Of a stretch of 64,000 nt of DNA, positions 18,463 through 19,025 are shown piece after piece; positions within the stretch are counted from its first letter, which is position 1, and every line of letters begins with the position of its first letter. This DNA comes from Desulfofustis limnaeus (GTDB lineage Bacteria > Desulfobacterota > Desulfobulbia > Desulfobulbales > Desulfocapsaceae), in NCBI RefSeq assembly GCF_023169885.1, contig NZ_AP025516.1:372001-436000 (forward strand), read 5' to 3'. The notes beneath the pieces are model-generated. The model saw only the letters and a program-made list of their open reading frames with translations. It was not told where the DNA came from and ran no database searches. A program made the position numbers and the translations under genes.

Positions 18463-18783
18463 TCAGGAAAGAATCGGCAACCCGGCCTTCTTCCAGGCGC
18501 CGACGCCGCCGTCGATGGCTTTGGCGTTGACGAATCCTCGTTCTGTATACTGCGCTGCTCGACCAGCAGCGGAGCCTCCGCCTTTTCAGTTGCAGTAGAA
18601 GATGAGTTCCCGGTCCCGGTCGATGGCGTCTAGCCGCGACGCGAATTCGCTAAGCGAAATAGCCCCCTCCAACCGGTAGGTGTTGAATTTTTCGTCACTG
18701 TCGTAGGCACAGACCAGCAGGGCCTGGCCATGTTTTTGTCGTTCATGCGCTTCGGCGGCGCTGACGAGCGTCACATCGGGCAT
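18463..18783 (-). CDS. rhodanese-like sulfurtransferase, probable selenoprotein (UGA at residue 66)
   Basis: A single rhodanese domain read through an in-frame TGA (18588-18586). The first 65 residues start at ATG 18783 behind AAGGAGGAAC and end ...ELIFYCN. After the TGA the same frame continues KGGGSAAGRAAQYTERGF, then VNAKAIDGGVGAWKKAGLP, and stops at 18463-18465. This C-terminal text is the conserved second half of the rhodanese fold, giving 106 residues in all, the normal size of the domain. The TGA falls in the active-site loop that normally carries the catalytic Cys. A hairpin with a GGUC loop lies at the right distance downstream (18553-18571). Read-through as selenocysteine is therefore favoured over a nonsense mutation. 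A standard annotation would show a 65-residue fragment. No sel genes are in the window. Confidence 0.85.
18553..18571 (-). promoter_or_regulatory. SECIS-like hairpin inside the rhodanese reading frame
   Basis: On the mRNA sense: CGCUGCU stem, GGUCG loop, AGCAGCG stem; 7 perfect pairs. The loop begins 21 nt after the UGA. Bacterial SECIS elements recognised by SelB have a short upper stem and a GGU-containing apical loop about 16-37 nt after the UGA; E. coli fdhF also has GGUC in its loop. Confidence 0.75.
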
Positions 18784-19025
18784 GATGTTCCTCCTTGATT
18801 ACGATGTCTTGCTTGGCGTGCGGTTGCCGGAATGCCGTACAACCATCGGATACCTTCACCATAAGCACGGATGGCGAAATCGCCCACGCAAAACGGTTTG
18901 GTTGCCGTCTTCAGAGAAGGCGGCTATAAAGGCTGAAGCGTCTGCAGCGTGACGGTTTCCCGCTGCCTGGCCAATTGATCGCCCGGCGTGACGCGCCGTT
19001 CGTACAGGTAGTGCCTGGAGGTGAG

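Follow-up and report, generated by a model that had tools for sequence, protein, structure and literature searches.

A predicted selenocysteine-containing rhodanese read across a conserved in-frame TGA in Desulfofustis limnaeus and related bacteria

A small rhodanese gene of Desulfofustis limnaeus, interrupted by TGA at codon 66, is very probably a real selenoprotein gene in which this UGA is decoded as selenocysteine (Sec). The gene lies in the 64,000-nucleotide stretch of DNA that we analyzed (the window; contig NZ_AP025516.1, positions 372,001 to 436,000). Its identification as a selenoprotein is supported by a TGA conserved among homologues, a covarying hairpin downstream of that codon, and the presence of selB, tRNA-Sec and selD in the genome. 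An initial sequence-only reading of the window had proposed a functional selenoprotein at this locus, and the conservation across relatives points the same way.

The coordinates given in that reading were right, but the strand, which is the minus strand, was missing from it (Table 1). Our reading of the minus strand agrees with the layout it described: a 65-codon open reading frame (18586-18783) whose last residues are FYCN is closed by TGA, and readthrough of codon 66 adds 40 codons (67-106) with the C-terminal end ...GVGAWKKAGLPILS, followed by a TGA stop. Frame 1 of the plus strand over 18463-18783 is interrupted by a TAG and encodes no rhodanese. It had also been claimed that the added codons complete a rhodanese fold, and the Pfam model PF00581 does span the TGA, covering residues 9-100 (score 35 bits, cut-off 22.2, E 2e-8); the window protein carries the CxU motif in the form FYCNU. 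On the plus strand opposite the gene, at 18569-18581, there is a terminator-like hairpin with a T-run, one such element being found against 0.7 in shuffled sequences, which is about the level of chance.

Table 1. Positions in the window of the selenoprotein gene and its features.
Feature	Position	Strand	Basis or remark
CDS, 106-residue selenocysteine rhodanese (predicted)	18463..18783	-	ATG at 18783, UGA stop 18465-18463; frame read, Pfam, homologues
In-frame TGA, codon 66, predicted selenocysteine (FY-C64-N-U66)	18586..18588	-	Homologue comparison
Codon 64, Cys	18592..18594	-	Partner of Sec in CxU; itself Sec in UxU relatives
Codon 25, Cys of VCAY	18709..18711	-	Replaces D-x-R of other rhodaneses
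Strong ribosome-binding site AAGGAGG, 6 nt upstream of ATG	18790..18796	-	Seen directly
SECIS-type hairpin	18549..18575	-	Core conserved with covariation

Conservation of the TGA was assessed by searching 257 genomes of the window's order with the window protein, Cys being substituted for Sec. Matches at E <= 1e-6 occurred in 54 of these genomes, many of them to other rhodaneses. At E < 1e-20 there were 21 places, the window included, and 20 of them have TGA at the codon of U66; the sole exception (L041) has Cys in the same column, in the motif FYCSC. The homologues thus hold Sec or Cys at residue 66, as had been anticipated, and the recurrence of TGA at one codon supports the earlier assertion that the gene is not a fragment. 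Motif variants in the order are FYCNU, FYCAU, FYCKU and FYUAU/FYUNU. Among the weaker family matches, one (G014:C128) covers only residues 58-105 and has one TGA, and another (L045) has an apparent frameshift with TGA at the Sec site. An evenly sampled set of 395 genomes of the phylum, searched with the family profile, contained 34 matches (window included) at E <= 1e-15, distributed over 32 genomes; all but one of the matches (G302) have an in-frame TGA. The residue at the Sec site is U in all 29 phylum loci that were read besides the window's; the matches outside those 29 are second places in G517 and G405, together with G343 and G302. A search of named genomes with the protein returned only two distant matches, in Pseudothauera and Thauera records, at 35% identity.

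Flanking genes were compared in 18 stretches. The window shares its gene order with the sister species, and G154, G156 and G158 share theirs, while the largest neighborhood cluster comprises 4 of the 18 stretches and joins genes at differing distances. Neighbors in these 18 stretches are unconserved beyond close relatives and give no hint of function. The same order also contains a larger multi-rhodanese frame with an in-frame TGA of its own (L052 in G023, motif FYCGGPTUGMS), and matches in long frames with one TGA each occur in G160, G108, G110, G164, G236, G239 and G090. These are perhaps of the UxxS 'form 1' type, and possibly constitute a second Sec-rhodanese family in the order.

The hairpin is present in the window exactly as first described, with 14 nt separating the UGA from a perfect 7-bp stem (CGCUGCU/AGCAGCG, 18571-18565 paired with 18559-18553) that is capped by the loop GGUCG (18564-18560). 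Three outer pairs, past a 1-nt bulge on each side, extend it. A check for a SECIS element had been proposed, and our simple stem-loop scans found the hairpin in a fixed register with covariation. Counts were made over 48 Sec rows, 20 from the order and 28 from the phylum sample, with L041 left out for its Cys, L045 for its frameshift and L116 because its match stops just past the UGA. One register, in which the loop starts at base 22 after the UGA, was applied to all 48 rows, and a G occupies one of the first two loop bases in every one of them. All five core pairs are formed in 41 rows and four of the five in 7. When the window's 7-bp stem is laid over the 48-row alignment, 82.7% of cells are paired: going outward from the loop, the first three pairs are intact in all 48 rows and the two that follow in 46 and 43, whereas the two outer pairs, with only 27 and 18, are not general. 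In all 34 rows with Gly at the loop codon, that codon is GGT, compared with 68 of 385 Gly codons (18%) elsewhere in the same genes, a bias that is not demanded by the protein; in the remaining 14 rows the place is taken by Ser AGT (8) or by Arg codons (6).

Cells changed on both sides of the stem numbered 47, against 22.4 in shuffles, and the covariation score was 0.328, against a shuffled mean of 0.155; neither value was equaled in any of 500 shuffles, and every slid register fell below the true one on both measures. Two further statistics were not outstanding, namely pairs with a double change (5 versus 3.8 in shuffles, 82 of 500 as high) and pair types (11 versus 10.5, 256 of 500 as high). 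Because kinship among the sequences inflates such shuffles, the slid registers and the GGT count weigh more. The probability of so long a stem given the protein alone is 3-18% per Sec row among the 20 of the order, and 3.4% for the window, as estimated with codon usage pooled from the homologues themselves. Synonymous recoding is therefore weak evidence in any single gene, and the argument for the hairpin rests on the joint pattern over genes.

Folding energy was rejected as proof of a SECIS, since it is not significant alone and only 35 of the 48 rows have the hairpin in their minimum-energy fold when a 48-nt stretch is folded (32 of 48 with a 66-nt stretch; the sister species is among those without it). 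The energy of the window hairpin is ordinary, with 38 of 200 shuffles folding at least as well (z -0.83). When the UGA and the next 8 bases were omitted, as being covered by the ribosome, 46 of 48 rows had the hairpin in their minimum-energy fold. Rfam gave chance-level matches only on the locus (best E 3.2). An argument from absence of the hairpin in L041, the homologue with Cys, was rejected too: the innermost pair and the GGT codon (GGG here) are lost, but the other 6 of its 7 pairs remain possible, two of them as U-G. This retention indicates at most early decay, so that the contrast between Sec and Cys genes is weak evidence for the hairpin. The predicted element is above chance by comparison across relatives, not by folding energy.

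The genome to which the window belongs is a single contig of 4.2 Mb, 97.8% complete. A search for the Sec machinery, which the sequence-only reading had put forward as a check, was successful for selB (365 bits, cut-off 242), tRNA-Sec (selC; 72.5 bits, TCA anticodon by ARAGORN) and two selD genes (L009, L010), each with a TGA at its ..GU.. Sec site, and unsuccessful for selA. Neither of two models matched selA in the sequence searched, which did not include the stretch between the 23S gene and a group of neighbors that we take, from their sequences, to be TPR/GGDEF, LOG and PilT genes. The archaeal-type SepSecS was looked for in this genome and not found, and a weak SelA-like match (L022) coincides with another ORF, presumably encoding a PLP enzyme of the trans-sulfuration type.

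Comparison within the family suggests where selA is to be sought. A match to selA was obtained in 72 of 93 family genomes, the sister species included; it is present in all 10 other family genomes with a match to the rhodanese (in G153 the latter is frameshifted only), against 62 of the 82 remaining. In two one-contig relatives selA adjoins the rRNA operon, and in one of these it also has a TPR/GGDEF-type gene as neighbor; a gene of this kind flanks it in the sister species too, where it lies at a contig end. The window's genome retains the TPR/GGDEF, LOG and PilT neighbors, located on the far side of the unsearched stretch from the 23S gene, and selA very likely lies inside the stretch between the TPR/GGDEF neighbor and the 23S gene. 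A missing selA was considered as a refutation and rejected: as its syntenic place by the rRNA operon is outside the searched sequence, the non-detection is not evidence of absence. The location of selA near contig starts or rRNA operons (L065, L066, L067) means that draft or masked assemblies may easily seem to lack it. Among the listed selA matches of the family, 29 of 73 begin no more than 700 bases from a contig start. One genome listed as 100% complete in 2 contigs (G114) has no selA match, possibly through true loss of the trait or through the same masking.

Given this machinery, we can postulate how the gene would be expressed and what its product might do. By analogy with the biochemistry of the known bacterial system, SelB carrying Sec-tRNA(Sec) would bind the hairpin just past codon 66, and delivery of Sec at the UGA would allow the ribosome to read a further 40 codons before the true UGA stop. 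The predicted product is a single-domain rhodanese fold with C64-x-U66 in its loop and C25 as a third conserved thiol. The substrate attacked by U66 might be a peroxide, a persulfide or sulfane sulfur, and resolution of the adduct by C64 (or C25) might proceed via a selenenylsulfide, which would be reduced by a thioredoxin-type reductant.

The sequence-only reading had placed the TGA in the active-site loop, where rhodaneses have their catalytic Cys, and this is only roughly right. The predicted Sec does fall in the active-site loop, two residues past Cys64; its identity with the classical Cys is uncertain, and the alignments disagree on whether C64 or U66 would be the classical nucleophile. 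The best sequence match in the PDB is the double rhodanese 6mxv (E 8e-11), with GlpE among the weaker ones. C64 aligns with the loop Cys of BH2092 (3nhv/3o3w, with no gap) and with that of the first domain of 6mxv, and U66 aligns with the classical Cys of GlpE and with that of the second domain of 6mxv. A structure model from the single sequence was poor (mean pLDDT 55). Cys25 is found in 46 of the 46 clade rows that cover the position, in the form (V/I/A)CAY, VCGY or VCAH (VCAY in L028), and at the same place the four outgroup rows (L117-L120) read D-x-R. The presence of three chalcogens, with two in a CxU pair, inclines us modestly toward a role in thiol/selenol redox chemistry or (per)sulfide handling rather than in classical sulfur transfer.

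The main competing function, plausible although we consider it less probable, is that of a classical sulfurtransferase with Sec as nucleophile, in which U66 would hold sulfane sulfur or selenium (as a perselenide) and pass it on, for example in sulfur trafficking or selenium delivery. The rhodanese fold, and the alignment of the Sec column with the classical Cys of GlpE and of the second 6mxv domain, are what such an enzyme would display; however, C64 takes that place when the comparison is made with BH2092 or the first 6mxv domain, the usual D-x-R is replaced by C25, and the paired C-x-U and U-x-U arrangements look redox-active. A different kind of alternative, rather unlikely and compatible with the main reading, concerns expression. 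Decoding of UGA with a SECIS generally competes with termination, and when selenium is scarce the UGA could terminate translation, yielding a 65-residue product or nothing and acting as a selenium-dependent switch, but there is no sign in the sequence of a role for a short product.

Two explanations that dispense with Sec fare far worse. It is highly improbable that the gene is a nonsense-mutated gene or a 65-residue fragment with a plain stop and a decaying 3' part, as, although the 65-codon frame has its own start and is closed by TGA, TGA recurs at this codon across many families of the phylum, conservation extends to the hairpin core, and 3' of the TGA most base differences between the sister species and the window still fall at third codon positions (17 of 28), as they do on its 5' side (34 of 59). 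Equally remote is insertion of another amino acid through a reassigned code or near-cognate read-through, under any of which the frame would be open, but TGA is the ordinary stop of 22 of 34 long open frames in the window and of the selenoprotein gene itself, selB, tRNA-Sec and Sec-type selD are all in the genome, and the sole non-TGA homologue that was read has Cys at the site, not Trp or Gly.

Returning to the selenoprotein reading, the motif variants suggest a further elaboration of the site. In 9 of the 48 tree rows (L025, L027, L028, L036, L037, L039, L040, L107 and L111), from several families of the phylum, the motif is (F/L)YUxU, with two TGA codons six bases apart and the same hairpin, whose apical loop starts at base 22 after one UGA and at base 28 after the other. 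On the tree this character requires at least 7 changes, 4 of them forced by well-supported branches, without distinction between gains and losses, and the UxU rows show hardly any clustering (a value as low in 53 of 500 shuffles). In the literature searched we found no account of a UxU rhodanese, and an earlier one elsewhere is possible; the term 'UxU' does not occur in the main text of a 2026 review (PMC13188914). It is conceivable, and we propose only tentatively, that the window protein belongs, with these, to an unnamed, almost always Sec-using 'VCAY' subfamily in which C25, C/U64 and U66 form a redox relay that replaces the sulfurtransferase site; in several lineages C64 would have become Sec, the U-x-U pair might form a diselenide, and one SECIS would have to decode both UGAs. 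With the UxU relatives it can be asked, in a naturally occurring case, whether two UGAs lying close together are both served by a single bacterial SECIS, and what a Sec-x-Sec pair does in a protein that is small and easy to make.

The wider significance of the locus lies in annotation. A repeatedly conserved selenoprotein is left under the cut-off by NCBI's nearest selenoprotein model, and such a score implies that in many genomes the gene has probably been truncated at residue 65 or missed. The prediction that routine annotation would overlook the gene is supported by these scores: the best NCBIfam match of the window protein is to NF041203, at 41.5 bits against a cut-off of 115. Six clade members other than the window protein score 40-68 bits against the same model, and the value for the sister species is 40.4 bits, while four D-x-R relatives score 88-119 bits, one of them above the cut-off. 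The model matches all 20 members of A1 at E <= 0.001, and in the 48-row tree the four D-x-R rows lie beyond a 100/99 split (the bootstrap not being fully settled).

Selenium rhodaneses as such are known already, as the sequence-only reading had stated, and so are CxU forms, which are listed in PMC13188914 and PMC9312934. The former review, in its available text, distinguishes five forms of Sec-rhodanese, of which form 3 is CxU and falls under NF041203; in that of the 2022 review (PMC9312934) the example accession of form 3 is given as 'COG0607 form 2, CxU'. Rhodanese-related selenoproteins also appear in the accessible parts of the Sargasso Sea and GOS surveys (PMC1088965, PMC2398784), and a rhodanese-like Sec protein is listed in those of a deltaproteobacterial genome paper (PMC8318568); in the accessible text of a 2006 survey (PMC1794560), the word rhodanese occurs only in a reference title.

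Several known systems resemble the window protein to differing degrees. Forms 1, 2 and 4 (UxxS, UxxG), as described in the available text of PMC13188914, and the proteins of the surveys are likewise predicted from sequence to have Sec in a rhodanese-type protein, but they have other motifs, some belong to COG2897, and it is by these descriptions only that they are set apart; the window protein reads U-K-G-G, and its G is not conserved in its relatives. TsoB (NF045694), a double selenoprotein resembling a rhodanese/DsbD fusion, shares the rhodanese domain and, with the UxU relatives, the possession of more than one Sec, but its model is a fusion of 572 positions with UxxxxU, against which the window protein scores 14.5 bits (cut-off 805). 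E. coli GlpE (PDB 1gmx) is like the window protein in domain and length, the aligned residues being 6-99 and the profile positions 4-99, and differs in having Cys for Sec, D-I-R for V-C-A-Y, and no CxC/CxU pair. The closest likeness is to NF041203 (rhodanese_LYCAU, form 3 CxU), with its single rhodanese domain, YCxU motif and Sec two residues after Cys; in contrast to that group, the window protein falls under the model's cut-off and the VCAY clade is separate in the tree. The sub-cut-off scores and the 100/99 split suggest that the clade is a sister subfamily or a deep subgroup of the known CxU kind, the comparison having been made via NF041203 and not with the example accession of form 3, rather than a new kind. 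What our analysis would add to the known selenium rhodaneses is this sister group beyond the reach of the standard annotation model.
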